A DNA stretch of 64,000 nt. It comes from Terriglobia bacterium. Its GTDB lineage: Bacteria; Acidobacteriota; Terriglobia; Terriglobales; Acidobacteriaceae. The position numbers and the translations under genes are program-made. Of this stretch, positions 3,903-31,747 are shown piece by piece. How positions within the stretch are numbered: position 1 is the stretch's first letter; each line of letters opens with the position of its first letter. The stretch is from the NCBI GenBank assembly GCA_020073465.1, contig JAIQFC010000018.1:1-64000 (forward strand), written 5' to 3'. The notes beneath the pieces were generated by a model. It saw only the letters and a list, made by a program, of their open reading frames with translations, was not told the DNA's origin and made no database searches.

Positions 3903-12485
<8,583 letters not shown>

Positions 12486-12551
12486 GATGACGTTCCCGTG
12501 CAAACGAGACAGGCGTAATGCCTGTGAAGATAGTCGGGCGTCTTGCTACTA

Positions 12552-14231: not shown

Positions 14232-14241
14232 GGGCAGTGCC

Positions 14242-15228
14242 TCACTTTGCTGCAACGCATCGCATTTCACGAACTCTGTTAGTCAATTGGGGCAGGAATT
14301 CCAGGAGATCGTCCACAATTCCGATGTCGGCGACCTGGAAGATGGGGGCTTTGGGGTTCTTGTTGATTGCGACGATGAAGGGATTGCCTTTGATTCCGGC
14401 CAGGTGCTGGAATGCGCCGCTGATACCGCAGGCCAGGTAGACCTTCGGCTTGACGGTCTTCCCGGACGAGCCGACCTGACGGGACTTCTCCATCCACTTG
14501 GCGTCAACCACCGGTCTCGAGCAGGACACAGCGGCACCTAATTCGTCGGCCAGCTCCTGTGCGAGGGCCACATTGTCCTCTTCCTGAATGCCGCGGCCGA
14601 TGGAAACCAGAACGTTGTGCTTGGTGATGTCGACGTCTCCTACCTCAGGGACAAGCGTCTCCAGATAACGCCGTTTCGCGGACAAGACTCCAACGTCAGA
14701 TGATTTGTCGACCACCGACCCACCGGCGGAAGCACCAGCCGGCGCCTTGAATGCACCGGGACGTATCGTGACCACAGCACCAGAAGAAATGTCGCAACGA
14801 ACATGCGCGCTCACCTGCCCGCCGAATTCCTGACGAACTACGTTGAGCTGCGGCCCTTCTACTCCGGTGATGTCCAATACGTCGGAGACGAATGCTGAAT
14901 TCATCTTGATGGAAAGCCCCGGCGCCAGATCGATTCCGAAATGATCATGCGAGACCAGCAAGATGCTGCCGGGCGGCAGGACCTTCACTAGTGCTTTCCG
15001 GACCAGTTCGGCATTGGGATAGACCAGAGGTTCGCTGGCGACTTTCCAAGCTTCAGTAAAGGAAGAACGGAGGGTGTCGCACGCGGCATCAAGGCCCGCA
15101 CCCCAGCCAGTGAGGATGGCGACCGGTGAGGCTGACGGATCGATCTTTCTTGCCGCAAACGCCAGTTCGGTCGCAGAGTCGTCAACCACTCCGTCTTTGT
15201 GGACGATGTATGCAAAGATCCGAGGCAT
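14242..15228 (-). CDS. etfA: Electron transfer flavoprotein alpha subunit
   Basis: FAD-carrying alpha subunit of the ETF heterodimer that shuttles electrons between acyl-CoA dehydrogenases and the quinone pool. It has 328 residues, the usual length. The C-terminal FAD-binding segment is clear ([20 protein letters not shown] followed by [10 protein letters not shown]). The ATG overlaps the etfB stop by one base (TAATG), so translation is probably coupled. The genes on both sides are ETF partners: the FeS oxidoreductase and etfB upstream and the acyl-CoA dehydrogenase downstream. Confidence 0.96.
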
Positions 15229-16019
15229 TATTTCAACCCTCCTTTAGCCGCCACGAGTTCCAGAACCTTATCGACAATTTCTTCACGGCTGCCGTGCAGC
15301 ATTTCGGCCCCCCGGCCAACCGCCGGCACGAAGTAGTCCACACGCTTTACCTTTGTGGCAGCTTGCCCTACCGCCGCCGGATCGACACCGAGGTCCGACG
15401 CGCTGAAGGTCGGAATGGGCACGGAAGCGATTTGCCGGATGCCCCGCATCCCGACATACCGTGGCTCGTTGATGCCGGTCTGTATCGAGAGCACGCAGGG
15501 GAGGTCGATCTCATTCATTTCTTTATTGCCACCCTCGATCTCGCGGCTGATCTTCAGCTTCCTGCCTTCCAGGACTTCAATGGAATTGACCAGGGAAGCG
15601 AACGGATAGTCGAGCATCGCCGCCAGCATCCCGCCTACCTGGGCGGCTCCATCGTCAGCCTGCACGCCGGTCAGGATCAGGTCGTATTGACCCTTCTGCG
15701 CGAAGGCTTTGAGGATGGTTGCGATCCCTCTGCCATCCGATCCGCTGAAGGCATCGTCGGAGATCAGTACGCCGTGGCTTGCGCCCATGGCCATCTCCCG
15801 GCGCAGGATCTCCTCGTCATCGTCGCCACCAACGGTGACAACCGTGACCTTTCCTCCTACTCGGGAGACGATCTGGAGCGCCTCTTCCACCGCGTAGTTG
15901 TCCGATTCGTTGATCGAATAGACCAACTCGTCGCGCTCAATATCGTTTCCAGCAGGGTTGAGTTCAATCTCGTTTTCCGAGGTGTCGGGCACCCTTCGCA
16001 CGCAAACTAGAATCTCCAC
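15228..16019 (-). CDS. etfB: Electron transfer flavoprotein beta subunit
   Basis: Beta subunit of the ETF heterodimer, binding AMP in classical ETFs. About 263 residues. The N-terminus reads VEILVCVRRVPDT, matching the usual EtfB start. I prefer the GTG at 16019 because a GGAGG sits six bases before it. A TTG at 16025, which would overlap the upstream stop, is almost on top of that ribosome site and is less likely. It is the first of the two ETF genes and is directly coupled to etfA. Confidence 0.95.
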   Translation of the reverse strand: MEILVCVRRVPDTSENEIELNPAGNDIERDELVYSINESDNYAVEEALQIVSRVGGKVTVVTVGGDDDEEILRREMAMGASHGVLISDDAFSGSDGRGIATILKAFAQKGQYDLILTGVQADDGAAQVGGMLAAMLDYPFASLVNSIEVLEGRKLKISREIEGGNKEMNEIDLPCVLSIQTGINEPRYVGMRGIRQIASVPIPTFSASDLGVDPAAVGQAATKVKRVDYFVPAVGRGAEMLHGSREEIVDKVLELVAAKGGLK

Positions 16020-16021
16020 GT

Positions 16022-18130
16022 TCAACCTCCACAGACTGCAAGTTCAGATTCTTTCGGGGAACTCTCACGTACAATCTGCTGGTCGACCAGTTCTGCCAGG
16101 TCGATGGCGGTCATCTTTCCTTCCATGCCCGCGACCTTGATCGCATCTTCTATGTTCGTCATGCAGAACGGGCATGCGGTCACAATCACATTCGCCCCGG
16201 CCTCCGCGGCCATCCGGACCCGCTTCACGCCCATGCGCTCTTCTTCTTTCGGTTCGTAGAACAGCATTAGCCCGCCGCCACCGCAGCAGAAGGAGCGATC
16301 CCGGCACCGGCTCATCTCGACTCTCTTCAGGCCGGGAATCGCGTCGAGCACATCGCGGGGATCGTCGTAAACCTGGTTGTGCCGCCCCAGGTAGCAGGGA
16401 TCGTGGTACGCGTACACCTTGTTCGGGTCTTCGACCGGACTGAACTGGATGTTCCCGGTCCTGACTCCGCGCGCGATCACCTGACTGATGTGCTCCACCG
16501 GCGGCACATCCTTATAGTCGTGCTTCAGTGCGTTGTAAGCGTGCGGGTCGGCAGTGACGATCCGCTGGACGCCGGATGCCTTGATCGCGTCGACATTCTG
16601 GTCGCGCAGGGCGAGGAAGAGCATCTCTTCGCCGAATCTTCGGACTTCATGGCCGCTGTCTTTTTCCACTGCGCCGAGGATTCCAAAGTTCTCTCCCACG
16701 TGGTCGAGAATTCGGGCTGTGGCGCGCCCGATCGACTGCATCCGGTCGTCGTAGGAGGTGATGCTGTCGACGAAGAACAGAGTGTCCGCACCATTGTTTC
16801 CGTCGATGGTCTTTACCTGGCAGGTTTGCTGGAAATCCTGGGCCCTCGTCCAGTCGGCCCGCTTCTTCTCCAGCTTCCCGTAAGGATTCCCGCGACTCTC
16901 CAAAGCCTTCAGGGGCTTCTGAAGTGATTGAGGCACATTCCCGTCATCGATCATCCCTCGCCGCAGATCGACGATCTTGTCGATGTACTCGACCAGCAGA
17001 GGGCACTCCTCTTCGCAGGCGCCGCAGGTTGTGCAGGACCAGATCTCATCGTCTGAATAAATGTTGCCGATCAGCGGCTTGCTGTTATTGGAGCGGCCAA
17101 TCACCGGGTAATGCTGGAAAGCGTAGTCTCTCGCCTTGATAGTGATGAATCGGGGCGACAGCGGCCGGCCCGCAGCATTGGACGGACAGTTATCTGAGCA
17201 CCGCCCGCAGTCCGCGCAGGAGTAGAAGTCCAGCATGTGCTTCCACGTGAAGTCTTCGAACGTCTTCACCCCAAAGGACTTGACCTGGTCCAGACGCTCG
17301 TCCGGAACGCCCCATCTCACCGGCTTCAGGATCTCGCGGTCGAGTTTCGCGAAGTAAATCGTGAACAGCGAAGTTTCCACGTGGAACTGGATTCCGAAAG
17401 GTCGATAGCACAGCAGGAAATAGAAAGTCAGCGCATGGAGAAGATAAGCGCCGACGTAGAGGCTCCGAAGCGTCGGCAGGGAAGCGGAGACAAGAGCAGC
17501 CTTCAGCATCCATGGCAGTGACAGAACTGCCAGGGCTTCGGCGGGCGCGCCTTGCTGTGTCTGAGCGGCGGCCTCGCTGGCCGAGAACAGGCTGTCGGCA
17601 ACCATCAGGACTGCAATCAGCCCCAACAGGAAGATGGCGTCTGCCGTGTGCGCCTTGCCGTACCTTGCCGGCACCGCATAGCGTGCTGGTTTGAAAACCA
17701 GACGGCGAATCGCCGCCGCCACCATGCACAGAAAGACAATGGTGGCCGCGTAGTCTGTAACCAGGTTGTAGGTATGCCCGACTCCTTCTGAGAAACCGGG
17801 CATTACAAGAGTCTCCGAGACACCAACCAGCAGCACCGAGAAGGCACGAATCGCGAGGAGAATAAAGCCGGCAAAGATCAGGAGGTGGATGATGCCAGCG
17901 GTTTTGTAACGCGGGTGTTTCCACTGGCCCAGCCAGAACTTCAAGACCGTTCCTAGCCGCGTCAAAGGCCGGTCAAAACGAAAATCACGCTTAGCCCGGA
18001 AGAGCGGCACCAGGCGTCGTGCCACAATGTAGGAAAAACATGCGACACCGAGAATGTGGATAGCCAGGAACAGACTCCGGCCTGGCACCAACCACTCTGC
18101 TATTCGTGCGGGTGAATAGTTACCTACCAC
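16022..18130 (-). CDS. Membrane FeS oxidoreductase, HdrD/GlpC-like, probable ETF:quinone oxidoreductase
   Basis: A 702-residue protein that probably links ETF to the menaquinone pool. The N-terminal ~270 residues contain several hydrophobic segments resembling the NarI/cytochrome b membrane domain. Two [4Fe-4S] motifs follow, CADCGRCSDNCP (about 304-315) and CTTCGACEEECP (about 363). The C-terminal half carries CCG-domain motifs (YHDPCYLGRHN, CRDRSFCCGGGG near 613), as in heterodisulfide reductase subunit D. The same architecture next to etfBA is known from fatty-acid-oxidising anaerobes and Geobacter-type genomes as an ETF:(mena)quinone oxidoreductase. The GTG at 18130 is the only plausible start, as no ATG lies near it. 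Electron direction cannot be told from sequence. Confidence 0.9.
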   Translation of the reverse strand: MVGNYSPARIAEWLVPGRSLFLAIHILGVACFSYIVARRLVPLFRAKRDFRFDRPLTRLGTVLKFWLGQWKHPRYKTAGIIHLLIFAGFILLAIRAFSVLLVGVSETLVMPGFSEGVGHTYNLVTDYAATIVFLCMVAAAIRRLVFKPARYAVPARYGKAHTADAIFLLGLIAVLMVADSLFSASEAAAQTQQGAPAEALAVLSLPWMLKAALVSASLPTLRSLYVGAYLLHALTFYFLLCYRPFGIQFHVETSLFTIYFAKLDREILKPVRWGVPDERLDQVKSFGVKTFEDFTWKHMLDFYSCADCGRCSDNCPSNAAGRPLSPRFITIKARDYAFQHYPVIGRSNNSKPLIGNIYSDDEIWSCTTCGACEEECPLLVEYIDKIVDLRRGMIDDGNVPQSLQKPLKALESRGNPYGKLEKKRADWTRAQDFQQTCQVKTIDGNNGADTLFFVDSITSYDDRMQSIGRATARILDHVGENFGILGAVEKDSGHEVRRFGEEMLFLALRDQNVDAIKASGVQRIVTADPHAYNALKHDYKDVPPVEHISQVIARGVRTGNIQFSPVEDPNKVYAYHDPCYLGRHNQVYDDPRDVLDAIPGLKRVEMSRCRDRSFCCGGGGLMLFYEPKEEERMGVKRVRMAAEAGANVIVTACPFCMTNIEDAIKVAGMEGKMTAIDLAELVDQQIVRESSPKESELAVCGG

Positions 18131-18154: not shown

Positions 18155-19744
18155 TCAGGCAACGATGAATTGTGTCTGGACTTTCTCCCGTTCTGTTGCT
18201 GGCACTGGTTCTGGTGCTCGTTTTGAGCCCATGGATGGAAGACTCGCCGGAAGAGGAATTGACATACGAACTGTTTCAACCGGCGCGGGTTTTGGTGCGG
18301 TCCGCGCCTTGGCGCGCACCCTTTTCTTTCGCGGTGGTGTTATTCCGACGATGTCTCGAAGCTCTGTGAAGCTCGACCTCAGGAGTTTTTCCAAACGGCG
18401 CAGATCGGGCGCTGCATGAACGTCGCCGCTAAACCCAAAGTAGATTGCGCCGTCATAACTCAGAATGGCGCAGTTGAGTGCCATTTCGCCGCCGACCGGG
18501 ACGTAGGGATAGCACTGCAGCATCTTGTGGCCCCGGAGGTAGAGCGGGAATTGCGGGCCGGGCACGTTCGTGCAAACCAGATTGAACGGCGTGATCGGTA
18601 ACTGGCTCGCGATGGGGCCGGCCAGCGCCTGCACGGAAGTCGGAAACATGCCGATCAGGCCCCCGGCCAGGCTCACTAACTCGGCGGCGTGCGAGTGTTT
18701 GAGAAACTCGGCTCTCCTGTGAACCGCGGCGAGCAGCTTTCGCGGATGACGAATATCGAGCGGAATGGTGACAGGAACCAGCGAGATACGGTTTCCCAAC
18801 TCACCCGGGCTCTCACTACCGCGCAGATTGACGGGCACCATAATGCGCAGCAGCCGGCCTTTCACACGGTCGCCATGCAGCTCACAGTAGCGTCGAACGG
18901 TCGCGGTCACGAGGGCGAGAATCACGTCATTCACACTGGTCCCGCACTTGTGCCGGATGGCTTTAACGTCTGCCAGTGGAATCTCAGTGAAGGCAAATTT
19001 CTGCGGGCCGCGATAGGGAACGTTAAAGCGCAGCCGCTCGGTGAACGCCGTGATTTCCGGGAGCAAGCGTGAGAACTCGTCCGTGGCCAGAGGCCCGCCA
19101 TTCGCTGCCATTCGCTGTGCCATATCCAACAGGTCTGCCCAGGCAGAGAGAATCCGTTTGACGAAATCAGCGTAGGAAGTTACCACACCGTCCATCAAAG
19201 AGTTGATTGCGTCGGGCGGCGGGGGAACTTGGAGGTGAATCCTCTTCTTGGGTAATGGCGGCGCTTCTGGATTTGCATCCAGGAGCGCATTCAAGATACC
19301 CACTCCGGCGATGCCATCGGCGAGGCAGTGGTGCAGGCGGAGGATGAACGGGGTGCGATTGCCTTTCAGTCCACGCACCAGGGTGATGTCCCACAGCGGG
19401 CGCTGCCGGTCCATCACTGCGCTGAAGAGTTTTCCCGCCAGGGCCTTGAGTTCGGTGTCGGTCCCGTGCTTGAGTGTCACCTCGCGTACATGGTTGTGGA
19501 TATCGAAGTTGGGGTCGTATTCCCAGCTGGGCAAACCGATATTGAGCGCCGGTGCCACTACGCGCTTGAGATAGCGAGGAAGCAACGGCAGCTTCGACTC
19601 GACAAACTGGAGGCAGTCTTCAAACGAGACCTCGCCCTCCAACATGCAGATGCTGGCCACGTTGAGGGGCATGCCTTCGCGTTCCAGATGCAAGAAGACG
19701 GTGTCGCCCCAGGAAAGGCGGTCACTTTGTTGATGGTTCTCCAT
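18155..19744 (-). CDS. Wax ester synthase / diacylglycerol acyltransferase (WS/DGAT)
   Basis: Transfers an acyl group from acyl-CoA to a fatty alcohol or diacylglycerol, producing wax ester or triacylglycerol for storage. It has 529 residues. The catalytic HHxxxDG motif is HHCLADG at 138-144, preceded by the conserved PLWDI (116-120). The C-terminal half has the ELGNRISLVPVTIP signature. The last ~60 residues are rich in Lys, Arg, Ala and Pro and probably disordered. GGAGAG lies 6 nt before the ATG. It lies 24 bp before the FeS oxidoreductase. The nearby AdhE could supply alcohols and the megasynthase acyl chains, so wax ester formation is a sensible guess; the acceptor is unproven. Confidence 0.93.
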   Translation of the reverse strand: MENHQQSDRLSWGDTVFLHLEREGMPLNVASICMLEGEVSFEDCLQFVESKLPLLPRYLKRVVAPALNIGLPSWEYDPNFDIHNHVREVTLKHGTDTELKALAGKLFSAVMDRQRPLWDITLVRGLKGNRTPFILRLHHCLADGIAGVGILNALLDANPEAPPLPKKRIHLQVPPPPDAINSLMDGVVTSYADFVKRILSAWADLLDMAQRMAANGGPLATDEFSRLLPEITAFTERLRFNVPYRGPQKFAFTEIPLADVKAIRHKCGTSVNDVILALVTATVRRYCELHGDRVKGRLLRIMVPVNLRGSESPGELGNRISLVPVTIPLDIRHPRKLLAAVHRRAEFLKHSHAAELVSLAGGLIGMFPTSVQALAGPIASQLPITPFNLVCTNVPGPQFPLYLRGHKMLQCYPYVPVGGEMALNCAILSYDGAIYFGFSGDVHAAPDLRRLEKLLRSSFTELRDIVGITPPRKKRVRAKARTAPKPAPVETVRMSIPLPASLPSMGSKRAPEPVPATEREKVQTQFIVA

Positions 19745-20066: not shown

Positions 20067-22733
20067 CTATGCGGTTTGTTTTTGAGAGGCATTTGCAGCC
20101 TGTGCTACGCCACGTCCGTGATAAGCGCTCCAAAACAGATCGGCCAATTCGCTCATCAGCGGCATGCGAGGGTTCGACCGCCAGGACGGATCGTCAAAGG
20201 CAAGCTTGGTCAAATCGGGTATCGCCCGCTCGAATTCTTCCCTCGAGATCCCCAACTCGGCGATCGACCGGGGGAAACCTAGTCTGTCGAGTAACTGTTC
20301 GGTCGCTGCTACCAGGTTCTTTACCTTTTCCTCGATCGTGTTGCCTCCCAGACCGAGCAAGTCCGCGACCGTGGCATATTTCTTGTGTGCGACATACCCC
20401 TGCGTATACGGCGAGGGCATGAACTTGGTGGGTACCGCCGCGTTGTACGCGATGACATGCGGCAACATCAGGGCGTTGGCCCGGCCGTGCGCGACTCCGA
20501 AGCGCGCGCCGAAAGCATGTGCGAGCGCGTGATTCACTCCAACTGACGCGTTGGAAAATGCCATCGCCGCAATGCAGGCGGCATTGTGCATCATGCAGCG
20601 TGCCTCTTCATCGCGGGGATTCTCATATGCGATGGGCAGGTACTTGAACACAAGTCGAATCGCCTGCATGGCGTCGGCGTCGGTATAGGGTGACGCGTAA
20701 CTGGAAACTCCAGCTTCCAGTGCGTGAGTCAGGCAGTCGATGCCAGTATCGGCGGTAAGGCCCTTGGGCATTGACATAACGAACTGCGGATCCACGATGG
20801 CCACATCCGGGCTCAGCGAGTAATCCGCGAGCGTCACCTTGCGCCCATGTTCTTTGTCGGTCAGGACGGCAAAGGGAGTGACTTCGCTCCCCGTTCCACT
20901 GGTCGTGGAGATGGCAATCAGCCGCGCCCGGGTGAGTTTCTCGGTCGGGTATTGGACCACGCGCTTGCGCAGGTCCAGAAAGGGAGCAGCGAGCTCCTGC
21001 AGGTCAGCTTCCGGCGATTCGTACTTGAGTTTCATGATCTTCGCCGCGTCGATCACAGACCCGCCACCCAGTGCGATGATCTGGTCGGCTTTGTAGAAGT
21101 TGAGCGTTTCCACTCCGTGCACGACGACCTTGACCTCGGGCTCCGCATCCGGAATGACCAGGACATGGACGTGAGTTTGCTCAGGCATACAGCGCCGGAC
21201 AATGTCCACGTGGCCGATGTGCTCCATCGCCGGGTTGGTAATGATGACGGTACAGCGCGATGGGAAATTGCGTACGTTCTCCACCGCGTTCATGTTGAAG
21301 TAGATCTGATTGGGAACCCGGAACCACATATGCGCCTGTGTCCTCCGAGCCAGCCGTTTGATGTTGAGGTAGTGATAGATGTTTACGTTGTCGGTCGTGC
21401 TGTTGCCTCCGCCCGTCCCGCATCCGAAGGAAAGGGTGGGCACCAGGTCGTTGTAAACGGCACCGAGCGCTCCTATAGAGCCCGGTGAATTCACGATGAG
21501 CCGCCCCGCGTTGATTACTTCGCCAAACTTCCGGATAACCTCGTCGTTGCGCGAGAAGATGACTGCTGTATGTCCAAGCCCGCCGGCATGATTTACGTCC
21601 ACGCAGACCTTGAGCGCCTCATCGACGGATTTCGCCCTGTAGACGGAGAGCAGCGGAAACAGCTTCTCGACCGACAGGGGATGTTCGCGGCCTACACCCT
21701 GAATCGGCGCAATCAGGAGTTTGGTGTTCGGCTTAACCGAAAGACCGACAAAGCGCGCAATATCGGTGGCCTTCTGCCCGACGGCCAGGGGCTGCATGAA
21801 TCCGGTCTCGGGATCGATCACGGTGCGCGCCAGCAGCTTCGTCTCTTTGTCATTGCAGATGTGCGCGCCCAGTTCGGCAAATTTGTTCAGCACGAGGTCA
21901 TAGATCTCGTCGTCGATCACCACCGTCTGCTCTGACGCGCAAATGGTCCCGTTATCGAACGTTTTGGAGATGATGATGTCGACTACAGCGGTATTCAGGT
22001 CCGCTGTCTTTTCCAGATAGACCGGAGTGTTGCCAGGCCCTACACCCAGCGCTGGCTTGCCGGAACTATAGGCGGCTTTGACTGCGCCCGGGCCGCCGGT
22101 AGCGTCGATCAGGCCCACGGCTTTGTGCTTCATCAGGTAGGCGTTGTCCTGCAGAGTGTGTGATTCCAGACAAGTAAAGACCCCTTCGGGCGCGCCGTGC
22201 CTCAGCGCGGTCTCATACATGATCCGTACGGCTTCGGAGCAGCAGCGCCAAGCCTTGGGATGGGGACTGAAGATGACTGCGTTCCGCGTCTTGATGGCCA
22301 TGATGCATTTGAAGAGCACCGTAGAAGTGGGGTTCGTAATGGGTGTGAGCGAGAAGATGACCCCAATCGGTTCAGCAATTTCGACGAGGTTGCGCTCAGG
22401 AAATTCGCGAATGACGCCGACGGTACGTTTGTCTTTGATGTAGTTATAGGCGAACTCCGTCGCCACCATGTTCTTAATGACTTTGTCTTCCATTACCCCG
22501 ATTTTGGTTTCTTCAACCGCCAGGCGGGCCAGATGTTGAGCTTGTTCCAGTCCGGCGAGGACCATCGGCTTGACGATGCGGTCAACGTCCTCTTGAGAGA
22601 ATTGGGTAAAGACAGCAGCGGCGGTTCTGGCCTGACTAACTAGTCCTTCCAGGTAGGCAATTCGTTCTTCGCTGAGGGTTTCTGAGGCAAGCGGGATCTC
22701 AACCCGCTCCTTTACTGCTTCGCTCGTGATCAT
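20067..22733 (-). CDS. adhE: Bifunctional acetaldehyde-CoA/alcohol dehydrogenase
   Basis: Reduces acyl-CoA (classically acetyl-CoA) to aldehyde and then alcohol with NADH. About 888 residues, matching E. coli AdhE (891). The N-terminal half is a CoA-acylating aldehyde dehydrogenase with the nucleophile in NGTICASEQ. The C-terminal half is an iron-type alcohol dehydrogenase with GGGSVIDAAK, PTTSGTGSEVTPF and the metal-ligand region DCLTHALEA ... GVNHALAHAFGARFGVAHG. The ATG at 22733 has AGGGGG 5 nt upstream; an ATG at 22751 is an alternative. As first gene of the block it could make ethanol in fermentation. Because the next enzyme gene is a wax ester synthase, longer alcohols are also worth considering. 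Confidence 0.95.
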   Translation of the reverse strand: MITSEAVKERVEIPLASETLSEERIAYLEGLVSQARTAAAVFTQFSQEDVDRIVKPMVLAGLEQAQHLARLAVEETKIGVMEDKVIKNMVATEFAYNYIKDKRTVGVIREFPERNLVEIAEPIGVIFSLTPITNPTSTVLFKCIMAIKTRNAVIFSPHPKAWRCCSEAVRIMYETALRHGAPEGVFTCLESHTLQDNAYLMKHKAVGLIDATGGPGAVKAAYSSGKPALGVGPGNTPVYLEKTADLNTAVVDIIISKTFDNGTICASEQTVVIDDEIYDLVLNKFAELGAHICNDKETKLLARTVIDPETGFMQPLAVGQKATDIARFVGLSVKPNTKLLIAPIQGVGREHPLSVEKLFPLLSVYRAKSVDEALKVCVDVNHAGGLGHTAVIFSRNDEVIRKFGEVINAGRLIVNSPGSIGALGAVYNDLVPTLSFGCGTGGGNSTTDNVNIYHYLNIKRLARRTQAHMWFRVPNQIYFNMNAVENVRNFPSRCTVIITNPAMEHIGHVDIVRRCMPEQTHVHVLVIPDAEPEVKVVVHGVETLNFYKADQIIALGGGSVIDAAKIMKLKYESPEADLQELAAPFLDLRKRVVQYPTEKLTRARLIAISTTSGTGSEVTPFAVLTDKEHGRKVTLADYSLSPDVAIVDPQFVMSMPKGLTADTGIDCLTHALEAGVSSYASPYTDADAMQAIRLVFKYLPIAYENPRDEEARCMMHNAACIAAMAFSNASVGVNHALAHAFGARFGVAHGRANALMLPHVIAYNAAVPTKFMPSPYTQGYVAHKKYATVADLLGLGGNTIEEKVKNLVAATEQLLDRLGFPRSIAELGISREEFERAIPDLTKLAFDDPSWRSNPRMPLMSELADLFWSAYHGRGVAQAANASQKQTA

Positions 22734-22858
22734 CGCTGCCCCCTGATTCATCGGTAGGGCGCGCTATCTGCGAGAACGGCAATCACTCGGATTTCACAGC
22801 CTCATGACCGCGAGAAGGACAGTCAGAATGCTGCTGGACGATCTCTGTGTCTCTGTTT

Positions 22859-23513: not shown

Positions 23514-25307
23514 TTACGCAACCACGTACTTGCCGGTTTCGATGACTCTCTGTGCGATCTTCTCGCGCAAAGCAATGGTGTTGTATGGTTCGTACTTGCA
23601 CAGGCGGCGCAGGATTGCTATTTGTGATCGCAGCATGTCGCCTTCGCTGGCGGCGGCGATTACCTTTCTCGCGGCGCTCTCAATTCTCTCGATTGCGCCT
23701 GCCATGTAAACACGAGTCATGGCAGTGGCATAAGCGGAGCCCGCCTCGCCGTTCCGCATCGCGAGTTTTTGCGCGCGCAGTACGGCAGACTCCATGGCAT
23801 AGGTTTCGATCACCATGTTGGCGATCGCTCCCATGATCTCCTGTTGGTCCTGCATCGCCTGCATATACCTTTGAGTGGCAACACCGGCCGCGAACAAGCC
23901 AATCTTCTTGGCAGCCGCGACCAGTTTTCGTTCATCTGCGAGGAGACCCTCCGTACCCTCTTCCCTGGTCCCTGAGAGCACTTCATCCATGAGGCTCTTG
24001 ATGGCTGCCATCAACGGCAGCTGCCCGGACATCGCCCGTTTCAGCAGGAAGCCGGTGATGACGAGCCGGTTGATTTCGTTGGTGCCTTCGAAAATCCGGT
24101 TAATGCGTGCATCGCGATAGGTGCGCTCGGCAGGGTACTCTTCCACGAAGCCATATCCGCCGTAGATCTGCACCATCTCGTCGACCACGTAGCTGATGAA
24201 CTCCGATCCCCAGACTTTGAGGATCGAACACTCGATGGCATATTCATCGATCACCTTGCGCACAGGGCCCATGTCGTGGTGACCTGAGTCCAGCTGCGAG
24301 ATTGCGGAGTCCATCATGCCTACGGTGCGGTAAGCCATGGCCTCGCCTACGAAAATCCCGGTGGCGATGTTGGCCAGCTTCTCGCGAATCAGACCGAAAT
24401 CGGCAATCACCTTCCCGAACGCTTTGCGCTGCTTCGCATAGGCGGTGGCACTTTCGAGGCAATTCCGGGCCGACCCGATGCATCCTGCGCCGAGTTTGAA
24501 GCGGCCCACGTTCAGCACATTAAAAGCGATGGTGTGTCCTTTGCCGATGTCGCCGAGCACATTGTCGACTGGCACCTTACAGTCATTCAGGATGAGCGGG
24601 CAGGTGGAAGATCCGCGAATGCCCATCTTGTGTTCTTCCGCACCGACCGAGAAGCCGGGGAATCCGCGCTCGATGATGAACGCGGTGAACTTATCACCGC
24701 TCACCTTGGCGAACACGATGAACAGGTCGGCGAACCCGGCATTGGTGATCCACATTTTTTCGCCGTTCAATACGTAGTGTGTGCCACCGGCGGAGAGTTC
24801 GGCGCGAGTGCGGCAATTGAGAGCGTCAGAGCCCGAAGACGACTCTGAGAGTGCGTAGGCTCCGATCATTTGGCCACTCGCCAGCCCGGGTAGATACTTC
24901 TTCTTCTGCTCTTCGGTGCCGAAATAGACGATGGGCAGCGTGCCGATGCAGGTATGAGCGCCCCAGGTCGTGCTGAAGCCGCCGTATTTAGCCAGGCGAT
25001 CAGCAATAATGGCGGATGTCACTTTATCCAACTCCAGGCCGCCGTACTCTTCGGGGACGTCGACTCCGCTCAGGCCCAGCTCACCGGCCTTCCTCACCAG
25101 TTCTCGAGTGAGGGCAAAGTCCTTGTGCTCCATCTTGTCCATGTTGGGGACAATTTCGTTGGCGGCGAATTCTTCGGCCGTTTGTGCAATCAGCAAGTGC
25201 TGCTCAGTGAAGTCTTCAGGAGTGAAAACATCGTCTGGCGCGCGCTCCCCGATCAGGAAACTGCCGCCAGAAATCTTGGGAGCGGATACTGCTGTAACCG
25301 TGGACAT
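23514..25307 (-). CDS. Acyl-CoA dehydrogenase, long-chain (VLCAD/FadE-like)
   Basis: First step of fatty-acid beta-oxidation, oxidising acyl-CoA to trans-2-enoyl-CoA and handing electrons to ETF. It has 597 residues: a ~400-residue catalytic core plus a ~180-residue C-terminal extension typical of the very-long-chain class. Seen motifs are YALSESSSGSDA (FAD/substrate), EKMWITNAGFAD and the catalytic Glu407 in RIFEGTNEINR. GAGGTGG precedes the ATG at 25307. It is transcribed alone, with a structured 5' leader and a terminator at its end. The etfAB-oxidoreductase genes 7 kb away are the likely electron acceptors. It is only distantly similar to the acyl-CoA dehydrogenase at 12552-14231, so the two probably have different chain-length ranges. 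Confidence 0.93.
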   Translation of the reverse strand: MSTVTAVSAPKISGGSFLIGERAPDDVFTPEDFTEQHLLIAQTAEEFAANEIVPNMDKMEHKDFALTRELVRKAGELGLSGVDVPEEYGGLELDKVTSAIIADRLAKYGGFSTTWGAHTCIGTLPIVYFGTEEQKKKYLPGLASGQMIGAYALSESSSGSDALNCRTRAELSAGGTHYVLNGEKMWITNAGFADLFIVFAKVSGDKFTAFIIERGFPGFSVGAEEHKMGIRGSSTCPLILNDCKVPVDNVLGDIGKGHTIAFNVLNVGRFKLGAGCIGSARNCLESATAYAKQRKAFGKVIADFGLIREKLANIATGIFVGEAMAYRTVGMMDSAISQLDSGHHDMGPVRKVIDEYAIECSILKVWGSEFISYVVDEMVQIYGGYGFVEEYPAERTYRDARINRIFEGTNEINRLVITGFLLKRAMSGQLPLMAAIKSLMDEVLSGTREEGTEGLLADERKLVAAAKKIGLFAAGVATQRYMQAMQDQQEIMGAIANMVIETYAMESAVLRAQKLAMRNGEAGSAYATAMTRVYMAGAIERIESAARKVIAAASEGDMLRSQIAILRRLCKYEPYNTIALREKIAQRVIETGKYVVA

Positions 25308-26483: not shown

Positions 26484-26536
26484 TTGCTGCAGTGCAGCAA
26501 CGATTTAACTATACGAGTCGGCTAGGCTTATGTCAA
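26484..26536 (-). promoter_or_regulatory. Sigma70-type promoter with PhaR-type operator, phasin 1
   Basis: Read on the minus strand: TTGACA (26531-26536), a 17-bp spacer, TATAGT (26508-26513), 7 bp, then the perfect palindrome TTGCTGCA-C-TGCAGCAA (26484-26500), which covers the predicted start of transcription. CTGC-N3-GCAG is the recognition sequence published for PhaR of PHA-producing alphaproteobacteria. The divergent phaR-type gene starts just 66 bp away, so the same site could also control the regulator itself. Confidence 0.8.
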
Positions 26537-26565
26537 GATGTGTTTGCAGGCTTGTGCATAGCAAC

Positions 26566-27108
26566 ATGAACCGGCAAGAAACCAAGGCGGACACCGTTCT
26601 GATCAAGAAATATGGCAATCGCAGGTTATACGACACTGCGGGCAGCCGCTACGTGAACCTGGACGATCTGGCTGCATTCATTCGCAAAGGCAAAGACGTT
26701 CAGGTAGTCGACGCCAAAACCGGCCAGGACCTGACCCGCGTCGTCCTTACCCAAATCATCACGGAAGATGCGAAGGACAAGCCGACGGGCCTGCCGCTCG
26801 AACTCCTCCGCCAACTGATCATCGCGTCCGACGAAGTGCGGCAGGAATTCGTCATGTGGTATTTGAAATCGGCGTTTGATACGTACCAGAAAGTGCAAGA
26901 CGCGGTGCAGAACCGCATCACCGAAGTTCAGTCCGCCATCCTGTCGCCAGTAGATATGATGAAACGGTTTTTGGGCGCGACGACACAAACACCGCCGCAT
27001 GTCGGGGCCGAGCCTGAACTCGATGCGTTACGCAGGAAAGTGGCAGAATTGGAAGCCCGGCTTGAGAAGAGAACGCCCGGGAAACGGCGTGCACCGAGAA
27101 AGCGCTGA
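26566..27108 (+). CDS. phaR: PhaR-type polyhydroxyalkanoate synthesis regulator
   Basis: A DNA-binding repressor that in PHA producers releases phasin promoters when granules appear. About 180 residues. The N-terminal PHB/PHA accumulation domain is clear (IKKYGNRRLYDTAGSRYVNL, VVDAKTGQDLTRVVLTQII). A central segment with the PHB_acc character follows, then a C-terminal coiled coil and a basic tail (KRTPGKRRAPRKR). I prefer the ATG at 26566, which places the domain close to the N-terminus. An ATG at 26530 would overlap the divergent phasin promoter. The two CTGC-N3-GCAG palindromes at the phasin genes are its likely targets, and the nearer lies between this gene and phasin 1. Confidence 0.92.
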   Translation: MNRQETKADTVLIKKYGNRRLYDTAGSRYVNLDDLAAFIRKGKDVQVVDAKTGQDLTRVVLTQIITEDAKDKPTGLPLELLRQLIIASDEVRQEFVMWYLKSAFDTYQKVQDAVQNRITEVQSAILSPVDMMKRFLGATTQTPPHVGAEPELDALRRKVAELEARLEKRTPGKRRAPRKR

Positions 27109-27147
27109 TCCCACAGACGTGCTATGGAGCCTGGCTGAACCTCAGAG

Positions 27148-27153
27148 TATAAT
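27148..27153 (+). promoter_or_regulatory. Possible -10 box for the alpha/beta hydrolase
   Basis: An exact TATAAT lies 54 bp before the hydrolase start codon. The -35 position 17 bp upstream (TGGAGC) is poor, so the call is weak. Confidence 0.3.
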
Positions 27154-27206
27154 CCCGCGTTGGAAAAACCATCCGCTTGCATGCGCGGGAGCGGGAATGT
27201 GCGTAA

Positions 27207-28040
27207 ATGCCCAGGAAGCTTAGAGCGAGATTGCGGCCTAAACAAAAGAGAGCAAGAACAATTCCCCAGGTAACGACCAGGCGCAAGCACACTCCGCGAG
27301 TCCAACCGGAAGCCAACAGCTCACTTTGGACCGAAGCCCTATTCGGAGCGGAGATCCTGCTGCTGCATGCTACGCCCGTCTACTACGGTTTTGGCGTCCC
27401 GCGCGGTGACGGCTCTGGTGTGGTCATTATTCCCGGCTTTCTGGGAACTGATCTTTATCTGACCGAACTTCACGCATGGCTTGCGCGCATCGGCTACCGG
27501 CCTTACTTTTCCGGCATTGGTATCAACGCGGAGTGTCCAAACCTGTTGATCCAGCGTCATCTGAACGAGACCATCGAAAGAGCTCTGGCGGAGACCGGCA
27601 GGAAGATCCACTTGATCGGACACAGCCTGGGAGGAGTGATTGCACGCTCGATCGCCGGTCAGCGGCCGCGTGATGTCGCTTCTGTGATTACTCTCGCCGC
27701 GCCGTTTCGCGGCACCGTCACCAGTCGAACTGTTCTGCATGCCGCTGAAGCCGTTCGCCTGCGCATCCTGCAGGAGCATGGTCGTGGAGTATTGCCCGAC
27801 TGCTATACCGGGCGCTGCAGCTGCAATTTTGTGGACTCGCTGAAGCGCGAGGTTCCGGAATCAATGGTCGAAACTGCGATCTACACGCGCCATGACGGCA
27901 TCGTCGACTGGCGGTACTGCATGACCAAGAACCCGGAAGTGGACGTGGAAGTTCCAGGAACTCATATCGGGATGGCATTCAATCCGGCAGCTTATGCCGT
28001 CGTTGCAGAGCGCCTGGCGAAGGCTCACTCGTCCGAATAG
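27207..28040 (+). CDS. Alpha/beta hydrolase, lipase/esterase-like
   Basis: A serine hydrolase of 277 residues. After a basic, probably flexible N-terminus (about 1-35), the fold begins with VVIIPGFLGTDLYLTELHAWL. The nucleophile elbow is GHSLGG. A later Asp (RHDGIVDWRYC) and His (GTHIGMAFNP) complete a plausible triad. The pattern fits triacylglycerol lipases of the LipA/EstA type. It may release fatty acids from stored ester lipid, since it follows phaR by 98 bp and lies among storage-granule genes; that role is inferred. Four cysteines cluster in CYTGRCSCNF and may form a disulfide or bind metal. It ends exactly where the convergent gene ends. Confidence 0.8.
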   Translation: MPRKLRARLRPKQKRARTIPQVTTRRKHTPRVQPEANSSLWTEALFGAEILLLHATPVYYGFGVPRGDGSGVVIIPGFLGTDLYLTELHAWLARIGYRPYFSGIGINAECPNLLIQRHLNETIERALAETGRKIHLIGHSLGGVIARSIAGQRPRDVASVITLAAPFRGTVTSRTVLHAAEAVRLRILQEHGRGVLPDCYTGRCSCNFVDSLKREVPESMVETAIYTRHDGIVDWRYCMTKNPEVDVEVPGTHIGMAFNPAAYAVVAERLAKAHSSE

Positions 28041-28997
28041 TCAACCGCGACCGACCATCTCCAAGACAGCCCCTGTTGTGGTTACCAACCGTTCGATGGG
28101 CTTGCCGAATTGCTGCAAGCAGAGTCTTGCTGTCGACAGGCTGTTGTTCACGACTTCAAAGCTACCCGAACAATCGGTCTTGGTGTAGGGAAGACGATGT
28201 AAGCTCGGCCCTCGACCGTCGATCTCCACTTCCAGTGAGAATCCGTCTCGCGTGGGACAACGAAAATTCCATACAAAGTCTGCAGCGCCTGTCCTGATTT
28301 CTTGCAGATTGCGAAAGAGGTATTGCTTCCTGTCATGCCAGAGCGCTGCTTTGCGGAAGACCAGGCCGAGTGGCATTTCATAGACGAGCGCTTCCAATGT
28401 GCTGTGTGGGGCGCCAGGACGAGGAAAGTATGCGTGAGCCCATGTCCAGAAGTTGCGATGACGATATCCACAGTTGTGTCCCTGTAGTCCGAATCCCAAC
28501 GGGTCGCCTTCAAAAGTCCGGCCATCGAGCATGATGCGCCCCGAAAATAACGCGTCAGAGTGGGGCGTCCGTGAGAAGCCAATCCATCCCTTGTTACTCA
28601 GGGTGACGCGGAACGTGGAGCGATAGCGCAAATCCCAGGAGATCTCGTGTCCGTCAACGCGCAACGTTCCCTGGCAGAAGTTCTCTCCGATCTCATTGTT
28701 GGCAATTCGCAAGTGGATCGGGCTCTGGCCTCGACCGCTGAGATCAAGGCCCTCCAATGGAAAACCCTGAATGAAAGTCTGGGGCTTTCCCTGGTGCGGG
28801 AACCATGTGGCCCAAACCTGAACCGGCATTCCCTGGCGTTCTCCGGCGCAACCACCTCGCCCAGGATTCATCAACAGATAGCGGAACCACCAGGCACCGC
28901 CGCCATCCGCCAGTCCCAGTCGAATGAACCAGACCTCATACCGGCGGCGGGTGGTCGGCGAAGAGAATACTTCGTTCAAGGTTTTTACGGATCTCAT
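28041..28997 (-). CDS. Lipocalin/CrtC-AttH-like protein, function unknown
   Basis: A 318-residue protein with many Trp, Phe and Tyr and no obvious signal peptide. Segments such as GLQGHNCGYRHRNFWTWAHA and the alternating beta-rich pattern resemble the lipocalin-like fold of carotenoid hydratase CrtC, AttH and tocopherol-cyclase-like proteins, which bind hydrophobic ligands. The assignment rests on that motif and overall composition, so it is tentative. The gene is convergent with the hydrolase, with no bases between the two stop codons, and divergent from the AarF-like kinase gene 126 bp away. A lipid-binding or lipid-modifying role would suit the neighbours. Confidence 0.45.
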   Translation of the reverse strand: MRSVKTLNEVFSSPTTRRRYEVWFIRLGLADGGGAWWFRYLLMNPGRGGCAGERQGMPVQVWATWFPHQGKPQTFIQGFPLEGLDLSGRGQSPIHLRIANNEIGENFCQGTLRVDGHEISWDLRYRSTFRVTLSNKGWIGFSRTPHSDALFSGRIMLDGRTFEGDPLGFGLQGHNCGYRHRNFWTWAHAYFPRPGAPHSTLEALVYEMPLGLVFRKAALWHDRKQYLFRNLQEIRTGAADFVWNFRCPTRDGFSLEVEIDGRGPSLHRLPYTKTDCSGSFEVVNNSLSTARLCLQQFGKPIERLVTTTGAVLEMVGRG

Positions 28998-29123
28998 AAG
29001 GCCAATTTCGCTGCTGGTGCGAGTCGTCTGCGACTGGGACTATCTCACATAGTTTCTGTTTGAATCGGTGATGACGGTCACTGCAGAGCCAGTTGCCGCG
29101 GCCCATAGTTTTGACAGGCCCCT

Positions 29124-30794
29124 ATGCTGGATCCATCCGTTATCGTAGCTGGCTTTGGCCAGCTCGCGCCGGAACAACTGCGCACCGCCCTCGCAAACTT
29201 CGTGCCCCAGGGGGCAACAGCGACCGAAAAGACCAGTGCCATTGAAGCCGGGCTGCGAAGCCCCGTTGGGCAGTCCCTGCGCGACGCGATGGCGCGATGG
29301 ATCGTCGACGAGATTGTTCCGGTAGACCGGCTAGTTCCAGAAGCTTATGTGAAGTGGCGTCCCCCGGTCCGGGACGCGATGATGTTCGTGGTAGCGCGGC
29401 TTTCTCCCGCGCGCCTTGCTCCGAAGCTCCTGGAGCAGATCGAACTCCCGGAGAAGACACCGCCTGAGGTGCGTCTTCTGAGGCTCATCGCCAAGGTGCC
29501 TGGTCTGCAGAAGCTGGGCCAGGTCATCGCGCGAAACCAGCATCTTCGGCCTGCCCTGCGACATGCGCTTGCCCGGCTGGAGAATGGCATCCGCGACGTA
29601 GAGCCGGAGACGATCCGAGCCATCATCCAAGAGAGCCTGGGACCGCGACTCGAACGCTTTTCGGTCGAGATTGCGCCGGCCATACTCTCGGAGGCCAGTG
29701 TCAGTGCAGTCGTGCGCTTTACCTGGAAAAACCCCGACAGCGGACGGCGCGAACGCGGTGTTTTCAAGGTGCTGAAGCCGCACATCCCCGAGTACTTTGC
29801 CGAAGACATGCAGTACTTGCAGGGACTGGCGCAATACTTCGGGGATCGCCACCATTGTTACGGAATTCCTGCGCACCTGATCCCTGATACCTTCCGCAAA
29901 GTCCGGCGTCTGCTCAGTCACGAGGTCAACTATGCCCGCGAGCAGAAGACGCTGGTCGAAGCATGGACGCTCTACCAGTCCATGCCAGGCGTGCGCGTGC
30001 CGCGACTGATTCGGCCCTTGTGCACGCCCAGAATCACGGCGCTCACCGAGGAACGCGGTGTGAAAGTGACAAACGCTGCTGCCAGTCTGCCGGCCTCGCG
30101 ACGCAGGAGGGTGGCTGAGCAACTGGTTGAAGCGCTGGTCGCTGTGCCGCTTTTTGCGTCGCAGCAAGACGCCGTATTTCACGGCGATCCCCACGCCGGT
30201 AACCTGCTCTATGACACCCGCACCGGCGACCTGACCATCGTCGACTGGGCCCTGAGGGAGCGCTTAAGTCGCGAGCAGCGCCGGCATCTCGCGCTGTTGA
30301 TTCTCCTGGTCAGTCTGCGCGATGCCGTGGGCGCGTCGAAGGAGGTCCTGGCGCTGAGTCAGCAGGGCATCGCGGGAAGTTCAGCGCGCGCCCGAATGGT
30401 CCGCGAGTCGGTCCGGCGCTTTCTCGATGAACTGCCGGCAGGACGTTTGCCGAGTGGCGGAGATGCGATGCGGTTACTGGAGCGGATCGCGATACGCGGC
30501 ATCAGGTTCCCGGGACCCCTGGTGATGTTATCCAAGGTGATGTTCACCCTTGAGGGCATACTTGCCGACATTGCAGGGCCCGACACCGGCATGGGCTTCA
30601 CCCTGGCGCGTCACGTGGCCCAGCATTGGCTGCGCAACCGCGCTGCATTCCGTTCGCCGCTCATGACCGGAGACTGGATTACGCTGCAGTGCAGCGCGCT
30701 GCTCTATGTCGGCCGACTGGGCGTGCAATTGGAACAGACGGTGTTGGACCGACTCCTACCCCTCGACGCGCCGGCTCGGCTGGCGTCGACGTGA
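29124..30794 (+). CDS. ABC1/AarF/UbiB-family atypical kinase
   Basis: A 556-residue member of the AarF/UbiB family, linked elsewhere to ubiquinone synthesis or membrane lipid homeostasis. The nucleotide-binding lysine lies in GVFKVLKPHI. The catalytic loop is FHGDPHAGNLLYD, with the metal-binding aspartate in IVDWAL. The first ~190 residues form an alpha-helical region without obvious match. E. coli UbiB is similar in length and has C-terminal membrane segments; here the C-terminus is only mildly hydrophobic. The start ATG at 29124 has a weak ribosome site. The gene stands alone between lipid-related genes. Confidence 0.88.
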   Translation: MLDPSVIVAGFGQLAPEQLRTALANFVPQGATATEKTSAIEAGLRSPVGQSLRDAMARWIVDEIVPVDRLVPEAYVKWRPPVRDAMMFVVARLSPARLAPKLLEQIELPEKTPPEVRLLRLIAKVPGLQKLGQVIARNQHLRPALRHALARLENGIRDVEPETIRAIIQESLGPRLERFSVEIAPAILSEASVSAVVRFTWKNPDSGRRERGVFKVLKPHIPEYFAEDMQYLQGLAQYFGDRHHCYGIPAHLIPDTFRKVRRLLSHEVNYAREQKTLVEAWTLYQSMPGVRVPRLIRPLCTPRITALTEERGVKVTNAAASLPASRRRRVAEQLVEALVAVPLFASQQDAVFHGDPHAGNLLYDTRTGDLTIVDWALRERLSREQRRHLALLILLVSLRDAVGASKEVLALSQQGIAGSSARARMVRESVRRFLDELPAGRLPSGGDAMRLLERIAIRGIRFPGPLVMLSKVMFTLEGILADIAGPDTGMGFTLARHVAQHWLRNRAAFRSPLMTGDWITLQCSALLYVGRLGVQLEQTVLDRLLPLDAPARLAST

Positions 30795-30931
30795 ACAAAC
30801 GAGACCGATGTCTGGCCGAGGCCGCTGTCGCTCATCCTGCCAGACTATGAACGGACAAATCCGAAGCGCTGCAACTGCCTGCGAACGGTGAAGCAGCGAG
30901 CAAATCAGGAACCGGCCAGATCCGCCCCTTT

Positions 30932-31684
30932 CTAGGCGGACCTGCGTTGATGAGCTACACGGTGCACCCGCTGTCCAGCCTTGCCCACAACCTTGGGCTG
31001 CTTCTTCGGCATGATCAGTGAGCCAATCATGGACTTCTCAGCATCGACAAAGCTCTTCACGCCTTCACCTGTGAAGTTCGCGATTGGCAACAATCGGGAC
31101 GGCGACAGCAGTTCCAAAGTTCGGGTTGCCGCGTCCAGATTCACACTCATCTGCTGACCCATCACATCCAGCAGCCGCTTCTGCGCTTCGATAAAGGCGT
31201 GTCCGGCTTCGCGCGCCACTTTCGCCAGTTCCGTCCTCCGCACGGCCTTGTGGTTATGCTCGCGCTTGTGGCTGGTTACCTTGTTGGCTTCCTCGGCCAC
31301 AACGTCCAGAAACTTCTTCTGAGCGCGGGTAAAGTTTTCCACACCCTCGCGGGCCAGATCCAGCAGGTGATCGCCGCGATCGCCTTTGCCGCCTTTTTCC
31401 AGTTCCAGCCAGTACAGGGTCTGCTTGCTGGCTGTGGTCAGGAAGTCCTGCTGCATTCCGATAAAGGTATCAAGACTGCGTTGTACAAGATCCGTCATGG
31501 CCACTACTGGGATGAAACCGGCAATCCGTTCCTTGACACCATTCATGAGGATGTCGTTTTCCTGCTGGGCCAGGTTGAGCAGCGTTCTTTGTGCTTCCAC
31601 CAGGCTCGACGTCCCCTCAATGGCCAACTCCTTCAGAATCGCCAAAGGAGAGTGCTCGCCACGGGGCTTCGCGTTCGCTCGCAT
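30932..31684 (-). CDS. Second phasin-like granule-associated protein
   Basis: About 250 residues, paralogous to the phasin-like protein at 25539-26468. The same helix unit recurs: LVEAQRTLLNLAQQEN, FIGMQQDFLTTASKQT, FTRAQKKFLDVVAEEA, FIEAQKRLLDVMGQQM and FVDAEKSMIGSL. It lacks the first unit of its relative, and its C-terminal tail is again basic (KKQPKVVGKAGQRVHR). I chose the ATG at 31684 because GGAGG lies 5 nt upstream. An earlier start at 31747 would translate through the operator and -10 box. Promoter layout is the same as for the first phasin gene, so both probably answer to the PhaR-type regulator. The TAG stop lies within a GGCGGA/TCCGCC hairpin (30921-30940) that may end transcription. 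Confidence 0.8.
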   Translation of the reverse strand: MRANAKPRGEHSPLAILKELAIEGTSSLVEAQRTLLNLAQQENDILMNGVKERIAGFIPVVAMTDLVQRSLDTFIGMQQDFLTTASKQTLYWLELEKGGKGDRGDHLLDLAREGVENFTRAQKKFLDVVAEEANKVTSHKREHNHKAVRRTELAKVAREAGHAFIEAQKRLLDVMGQQMSVNLDAATRTLELLSPSRLLPIANFTGEGVKSFVDAEKSMIGSLIMPKKQPKVVGKAGQRVHRVAHQRRSA

Positions 31685-31696
31685 AATAGCCTCCAT

Positions 31697-31747
31697 TGCT
31701 GCAATGCAGCATAGCTTCATGCTAGTATCCAGATTCCGGCGTGTCAA
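31697..31747 (-). promoter_or_regulatory. Promoter with PhaR-type operator, phasin 2
   Basis: On the minus strand: TTGACA (31742-31747), a 17-bp spacer, TAGCAT (31719-31724), 7 bp, then the palindrome TGCTGCA-T-TGCAGCA (31697-31711), which contains CTGC-N3-GCAG. Spacing and order match the phasin 1 promoter almost to the base, although the surrounding sequence differs. This argues for selection on the arrangement. Confidence 0.78.

Follow-up and report, generated by a model that had tools for sequence, protein, structure and literature searches.

In a 64,000-nucleotide stretch of a Terriglobia bacterium genome (Acidobacteriota, Terriglobales; positions 1 to 64,000 of contig JAIQFC010000018.1, assembly GCA_020073465.1; hereafter the window), two genes for phasin-like coat proteins, phasA and phasB, share a promoter design built around one palindromic operator (O1), and phaR, which encodes a PhaR-type regulator, lies divergent to phasA. 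PhaR and phasins are classically proteins of polyhydroxyalkanoate (PHA) granules, and PhaR is regarded as a PHA sensor. We conclude that this PhaR/phasin module probably serves droplets of neutral lipid in this genome and, in its sister genomes, PHA granules. The evidence comes from the conservation of the operator, from the storage enzyme encoded at the locus (a wax-ester/triacylglycerol synthase, WS/DGAT, in place of a PHA synthase, PhaC), and from the way the two enzymes are distributed among phaR-bearing relatives.

One operator at two coat-protein promoters

Read on the minus strand, the two promoters are TTGACA-17-TATAGT-8-TGCTGCACTGCAGCA-SD-ATG (phasA) and TTGACA-17-TAGCAT-7-TGCTGCATTGCAGCA-SD-ATG (phasB), where SD is the Shine-Dalgarno sequence and numbers are base pairs (Table 1). 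The initial annotation of this DNA had pointed out the shared layout and palindrome, and both copies proved exact (26485-26499 and 31697-31711). We scanned the genome (5,911,990 bp in 67 contigs, 99.99% complete) for exact and single-mismatch copies of TGCTGCA-N-TGCAGCA, taking the chance expectation from the window by a first-order Markov model. There are two exact copies, in the phasA and phasB promoters only, compared with 0.058 expected, which answers the concern that the palindrome might be equally frequent at random sites. Two single-mismatch copies lie elsewhere in the genome (L119, L120), and the query genes of our analysis were not found beside them. The shorter core CTGC-N3-GCAG, which the initial annotation gave as the published PhaR site, is present in both palindromes at the phasin promoters, but this core alone is unspecific (six occurrences in the window compared with 2.24 expected; about 205 expected genome-wide), and a search of the open-licence literature for it found no paper. 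Matches at 30152 and 30682 were set aside as lying inside the ABC1 coding region; the latter recurs within ABC1 in L035 and L051.

The operator is conserved among relatives. Our first set of relatives contains 35 loci, with phasA found in 29; the loci without it (L057, L062, L065, L066, L068 and L069) are outside the promoter count, and L066 has an exact site at its contig start. A site with at most one mismatch stands directly before phasA in 29/29 phasA-bearing loci. Together with the window and L105, L109 and L112, these give 33 orthologous phasA promoters, including two pairs from the same genome or isolate (L047 with L105, L044 with L067). All 33 have a TTGACA -35 box and a -35/-10 spacing of 17 bp, and the gap from the -10 box to the operator is 8 bp in 29 promoters and 9 bp in four. 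The arms of O1 are identical in 32/33, and its central base can be any of the four. Mean pairwise identity is 0.96 for O1, 0.46 for the promoter spacer, 0.38 for the 15 bp downstream, and 0.54 for the 50 bp upstream (promoter included); a constant operator between diverged flanks is what the initial annotation proposed when it called the design selected. The phasB promoters (n = 11) follow the same plan (operator exact in 10, one mismatch in one), with TTGACT as the -35 box in nine. L116 and L117 are further exact operators elsewhere in their genomes, each before a 63% phasA paralogue, and the operator also accompanies phaR and phasA in L153, L154 and L157, which come from three further genera of this family. 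At least 18 genomes have exact sites among the matches listed, and all of them carry phaR. One more exact copy (L118, G019:C10:4282-4296) lies close to where its contig stops and has no recognisable phasin adjoining.

A second PhaR-like site (O2), missed in the initial annotation, lies between the phasA -35 box and phaR and reads TTGTGCATAGCAACA at 26552-26566. Scored against the Sinorhizobium meliloti PhaR core YGCRNYGCR, 33/33 phasA promoters contain O2 with at most one mismatch (six perfect, 27 with one mismatch), as compared to 0.5% perfect and 7% one-mismatch in letter shuffles of the same stretches. O2 is found 17-19 bp before the -35 box in 32/33 phasA promoters (8 bp in L049), at 18 bp in both phasA-paralogue promoters, at 19 bp in 3/3 promoters from other genera, and at 18 bp in 7/11 phasB promoters (in L036 and L041 the sole match lies at 4 bp). 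As a side observation, a third PhaR-like site (e.g. TTTTGCAGTGCAGCA) precedes the lipase gene in L036, L039, L041, L052, L053, L054, L055, L061 and L112; we rejected it as a general feature, since it is found in only 9/26 loci, is absent in the window, and in L112 lies much further upstream.

The regulator and the coat proteins were examined by profile searches. As the initial annotation had it, a PhaR-type gene is divergent to one phasin gene, and it is the only PF07879 gene in the genome (97.2 bits, cut-off 25). Against TIGR01848 it scores 102.4 bits over 104/107 positions, a near miss of the equivalog cut-off (109.45). PhasA and PhasB belong to paralogous families (hhalign E = 1.9e-85), and hhalign relates them at 98% and 96%, respectively, to a phasin family encoded beside PhaC at PHA loci (family A3), whereas 30 column-shuffled phasA alignments reach at most 1.2% against A3. 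Within A3, PF09361 is matched in 6/10 members at E<=0.01 (best 3.1e-6; the first member has no match), and within the phasA family PF09712 is matched in 12/21 and PF09361 in 4/21 at the same threshold, the window's own phasA being in neither group. The alignment of the phasB family (10 members) matched no Pfam phasin family. PhasA shows a repeat of about 48 residues, its lag-48 score exceeding that of each of 200 shuffles; the score of PhasB does not. A predicted structure of PhasA has a six-helix pattern, which we count as weak support; its mean pLDDT (predicted local distance difference test) of 46 is too low, so the model is unfit for fold search.

WS/DGAT at the locus, PhaC in sister genomes

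WS/DGAT is the storage enzyme encoded at the locus, 7 kb from phaR (TIGR02946, 350 bits, cut-off 310; the HHxxxDG active site is present). It sits within a tight gene run (AdhE, STAS-like, WS/DGAT, FeS, EtfB, EtfA, acyl-CoA dehydrogenase), with the FadE-type gene close by. The AdhE in this run (20067-22751) is full length and over its equivalog cut-off, and could be the source of the alcohol, either ethanol or a fatty alcohol, that ester synthesis needs. The PHA synthase gene that the initial annotation expected did not turn up: TIGR01838, TIGR01836 and PF07167 are all without a match in the 99.99%-complete genome. TIGR01836 finds the PhaC of sister genomes at E = 7e-96 or better, and its sensitivity is therefore good.

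Profile searches for phaR, PhaC and WS/DGAT in 45 genomes of the same genus identified phaR in 25, a strong PhaC match in nine, WS/DGAT over the cut-off in 15, and both enzymes in none. All nine PhaC genomes and all 15 WS/DGAT genomes are phaR-positive. A single phaR-positive genome has neither enzyme (G023); it is 77% complete, and its phaR contig (L099) ends within AdhE, before the place of WS/DGAT. None of the 20 phaR-negative genomes has a PhaC match or a WS/DGAT above the cut-off (G068 has one partial hit, 22.9 bits). G054, outside the genus, has two weak partial PhaC matches of about 21 bits, which explains a 9/61 tally. The mutual exclusivity of PhaC and WS/DGAT has P = 5e-6 when genomes are treated as independent, a value overstated by kinship. 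Out of 34 of the 35 relative loci (L069 left out), 13 contain WS/DGAT and none contains PhaC.

The association with WS/DGAT reaches beyond the genus. In L153, L154 and L157, phaR, operator, phasA, lipase, ABC1 and WS/DGAT are found together in a changed order, and in families f19 and f30 (L185, L188, L189) phaR, WS/DGAT and lipase share one stretch, with the lipase orthologue directly 3' of WS/DGAT; L185 and L189 also contain sequence resembling phasA. In the phylum, PF07879 is found in 86/396 genomes and 60/210 genera. We sampled 40 phaR loci from 38 of these 86 genomes, non-randomly (roughly by descending score, with most of one large genus omitted), and searched them by tblastn with the window WS/DGAT and the L094 PhaC, so that remote synthases could escape; several stretches end at contig ends. 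PhaC is nearby in seven loci, a clear WS/DGAT in six, a weak WS/DGAT (25-28% identity) in three, and both in none.

The nine PhaC-bearing genomes of the genus share one arrangement, in which the operator separates phaR from a phasin gene and a PhaE-like gene and PhaC come next. Their operator is exact in six and has one mismatch in L095, L111 and L115. In L094, the only one of these loci checked by Pfam, the PhaE-like protein reaches the cut-off of neither PF09712 nor PF05597, and PhaC passes PF07167. A near-copy, TGCCGCA-N-TGCAGCA, lies in a good promoter before a short-chain dehydrogenase/reductase (SDR) gene in L094, L095, L102, L103 and L108 (with a MaoC/PTA-type fusion directly behind SDR in L094, L095 and L108); the near-copy of L091 is without such a promoter. 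The operator before phasin-PhaE-PhaC genes and its near-copy before SDR genes indicate that it belongs to storage-granule genes, and the suggestion of a granule regulon outside the Proteobacteria gains support from it. PHA-type promoters (n = 11) are built somewhat differently: spacing is 16 bp in 10/11, the best -10 box abuts the operator in L093 and L108, none has a perfect O2 core, and three have a one-mismatch core at 13, 21 and 22 bp (the -35 box of L159 was probably misplaced by the script in these distances). All 9/9 PHA-type loci have an extra GCAGCAT/GCAACAT half-site downstream.

PhaR itself differs between the two locus types. Over residues 1-70, conservation relative to the window PhaR is 0.61 for PHA-type and 0.78 for WS-type sequences; over residues 71-115 it is 0.34 for PHA-type compared with 0.89 for 18 WS-type sequences. 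A common operator combined with a differing contact to the inclusion would be expected to give this pattern, and general divergence could contribute. In a tree built from 83 PhaR proteins, two changes are required for each of the labels PHA and WS, and two are forced by the starred branches; 45 of the rows have neither label, and some placements are uncertain on account of long branches.

Table 1. Positions of the operators, promoter elements and genes of the storage locus in the window.
Feature	Position	Strand	Basis or remark
Second acyl-CoA dehydrogenase, EtfA, EtfB, Fe-S/CCG oxidoreductase	12552..18130	-	Abut WS/DGAT
WS/DGAT, wax-ester/triacylglycerol synthase, active-site motif HHCLADG	18155..19744	-	TIGR02946, PF03007, PF06974
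AdhE-type acyl-CoA/alcohol dehydrogenase	20067..22751	-	NF010378, 1134 bits (cut-off 951)
FadE-type acyl-CoA dehydrogenase	23514..25307	-	NF058590, 856 bits (cut-off 600)
phasA, 309-aa phasin-like protein, about six helical repeats of 44-48 residues	25539..26468	-	Profile comparison, repeat score, low-confidence model
Operator O1 of phasA, TGCTGCACTGCAGCA	26485..26499	-	8 bp 3' of -10, around expected transcription start; predicted site
phasA -10 box TATAGT	26508..26513	-	Read from sequence
phasA -35 box TTGACA	26531..26536	-	Read from sequence
Second PhaR-like site O2, TGTTGCTATGCACAA	26552..26566	-	5' of phasA -35, overlaps A of phaR ATG
phaR, PhaR-type regulator	26566..27108	+	PF07879; divergent to phasA
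Alpha/beta-hydrolase, lipase-like, GHSLGG	27207..28040	+	3' of phaR; serine box GHSLG
318-aa protein, no Pfam family, tentative CrtC/AttH fold	28041..28997	-	Model pLDDT 69, TM-scores <0.5
ABC1/UbiB-type kinase-like protein	29124..30794	+	PF03109, 86 bits; at locus in many relatives
phasB, 250-aa phasA paralogue	30932..31684	-	Profile comparison
Operator O1 of phasB, TGCTGCATTGCAGCA	31697..31711	-	7 bp 3' of -10; predicted site
phasB -10 box TAGCAT, weak	31719..31724	-	Read from sequence
phasB -35 box TTGACA	31742..31747	-	Read from sequence

Other genes of the locus are listed in Table 1. The 318-aa protein has many invariant residues in 13 relatives and is found near phaR in many close relatives; the best PDB matches of its model are AttH and kievitone hydratase, which may hint at such a fold. 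Searching solved structures by sequence yielded no useful match for PhasA, this CrtC-like protein or PhaR. The ABC1 kinase, serine hydrolase and CrtC-fold protein between the phasin genes presumably resemble the plant plastoglobule set, a parallel we do not adopt. Divergent to phasB is a 174-aa gene (31784-32308, plus strand) with a weak resemblance to the PF05597 phasin family (14.8 bits, below the cut-off of 28.8), which adjoins phasB in relatives. Just 3' of the lipid gene run, a single open frame of 2866 codons spans 3903-12503 on the minus strand.

Proposed circuit and alternative readings

From established PhaR biology and the lipid-droplet regulator MLDSR (PMC5504291), we infer the following circuit. 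The palindromes would be PhaR operators sitting where transcription of the two phasin-type coat-protein genes begins. In cells without inclusions, free PhaR would bind O1 and repress phasA and phasB, and probably phaR too, O2 being a putatively weaker site that overlaps the phaR start and would tie PhaR to its own gene. Growing inclusions would take up PhaR, and the coat proteins would be made. The inclusion here is most likely a wax-ester/triacylglycerol droplet formed by WS/DGAT and not a PHA granule; in sister genomes, the same operator and a related PhaR would control a PHA locus. This suggests that the same switch is able to serve either kind of storage droplet.

Several observations weigh against this reading. 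Neither phasA nor phasB of the window passes the cut-off of any Pfam phasin family; the initial annotation's two phasin genes thus hold up in profile comparison with PHA-locus phasins and fall short at the Pfam cut-offs. The window phasB promoter, like that of L035, is without O2, and the window phasA O2 is one mismatch from the core. WS/DGAT, adhE and FadE have no consistent operator: we rejected a conserved operator of their own, as upstream sites scoring >=10 were found in 0/37 (adhE), 2/23 (FadE) and 3/29 (WS/DGAT) cases, counts that include some loci held twice, and the regulon may therefore consist of the coat proteins and phaR only. The PhaC matches of the genus score 322-339 bits against TIGR01836, below its cut-off of 365 in all nine genomes (PF07167 is over its cut-off in 8/9, G062 not having been searched with it). 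Neither synthase lies in the stretch at 24/40 phylum phaR loci. With two changes per label in the PhaR tree, the exclusivity rests on few evolutionary events. At the f19/f30 loci, L188 and L189 have no good operator match near phaR and the matches of L185 all fall within coding frames, so that evidence for a shared operator comes mainly from the family of the window.

Some of these points are also what would be seen if PhaR were, like its rhizobial counterparts, a general carbon-overflow regulator and WS/DGAT lay nearby by coincidence. The regulon of S. meliloti PhaR is broad (PMC12542648), the genome operator count excludes degenerate sites, WS/DGAT is without a consistent operator of its own, and most of the sampled phylum loci have neither synthase near phaR. 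We nevertheless regard this as unlikely, because the two exact sites in the genome are both at phasin-type genes, WS/DGAT over the cut-off occurs in the genus only in phaR-positive genomes (15/15), and the association survives rearrangement in L153, L154 and L157 and recurs in f19/f30.

A conventional PHA granule regulon, with a synthase that escaped recognition or is absent from the assembly, would agree with the classical role of PhaR and phasins, with the matching arrangement of the PhaC-bearing sister genomes and with an assembly in 67 contigs. It is improbable given that three synthase models, one of them demonstrably sensitive in the sisters, find no match in so complete a genome, and that 15/25 phaR-positive genomes of the genus likewise have WS/DGAT and no PhaC match. 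The neighbouring hydrolase speaks against it as well, having a serine box (GHSLG) compared with the cysteine box GWCIGA of the L094 PhaC. That the palindromes serve another regulator, or are functionless relics of PhaR sites, is very improbable: PhaR binding there is predicted from sequence and the short core is common by chance, but the arms are nearly invariant at a near-fixed promoter distance, the identical 15-mer lies within a site bound by S. meliloti PhaR (PMC12542648), and the genomes with exact sites, at least 18 among the matches listed, are all phaR-positive.

If the module does serve neutral-lipid droplets, the PhaR sensor can be re-targeted to neutral lipid, as in the 15 genus genomes with WS/DGAT, undetected PhaC and the same operator as in the PhaC sisters. 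We give about even weight to a wider proposal: that the PhaR circuit in Acidobacteriota has moved between PHA granules and wax-ester/triacylglycerol droplets, at least two times by the tree, keeping the PhaR DNA-binding domain (the operator too, within the family of the window) while the inclusion-sensing part was rebuilt, so that PhaR would sense a hydrophobic inclusion surface and not PHA as such. PHA-type and WS-type PhaR would then be paired natural variants for mapping the residues that decide the inclusion type. The droplet reading also suggests that neutral lipid is stored by soil and peat Acidobacteriota, which are known chiefly through metagenomes.

Comparison with known systems

Our search of the open-licence literature (wax ester, acyltransferase, Acidobacteria; including the excerpt of PMC6686919), with subscription papers outside its range, found no paper tying PhaR to WS/DGAT. 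The closest parallel in promoter layout is Ralstonia eutropha phaP1, where PhaR sites lie directly 5' of the -35 box and around the transcription start, with the palindrome YTKNTGCRNYGCANMAR and its single central base (PMC12849132); window phasA likewise has a site 5' of the -35 box and a site at the expected start. The two systems differ in that PHA is stored in Ralstonia, whereas here no PHA synthase was found, WS/DGAT is at the locus and the phasins are under the Pfam cut-offs.

The core YGCRNYGCR, described for S. meliloti AniA/PhaR together with its broad regulon (PMC12542648), is common to the window and to Rhodobacter sphaeroides PhaR, whose site CTGCNNNGCAG is quoted in the same paper. 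The S. meliloti site AGATGCTGCACTGCAGCATTA, for which PhaR binding in vitro was scored 'Efficient', contains the window phasA operator TGCTGCACTGCAGCA letter for letter (PMC12542648). These regulators have many targets and are linked to polyhydroxybutyrate (PHB), whereas the window genome has two exact operators and probably stores neutral lipid. In Herbaspirillum, the site protected by a PhaR relative is TG[N]TGC[N]3GCAA (PMC3206438).

The sister class III-like PHA loci (L091, L094, L156) resemble the window in that phaR and a phasin gene flank the same operator and that the DNA-binding domain of PhaR is related; they differ in having phasin, PhaE-like and PhaC genes in place of the window's phasA/WS-DGAT neighbourhood. 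For the droplet side of the comparison, Rhodococcus jostii MLDSR regulates the lipid-droplet coat protein MLDS and is itself sequestered by lipid droplets (PMC5504291). By analogy, a coat-protein regulator taken up by droplets is what we propose here, with the difference that the window regulator is a PF07879 protein encoded divergent to phasA.

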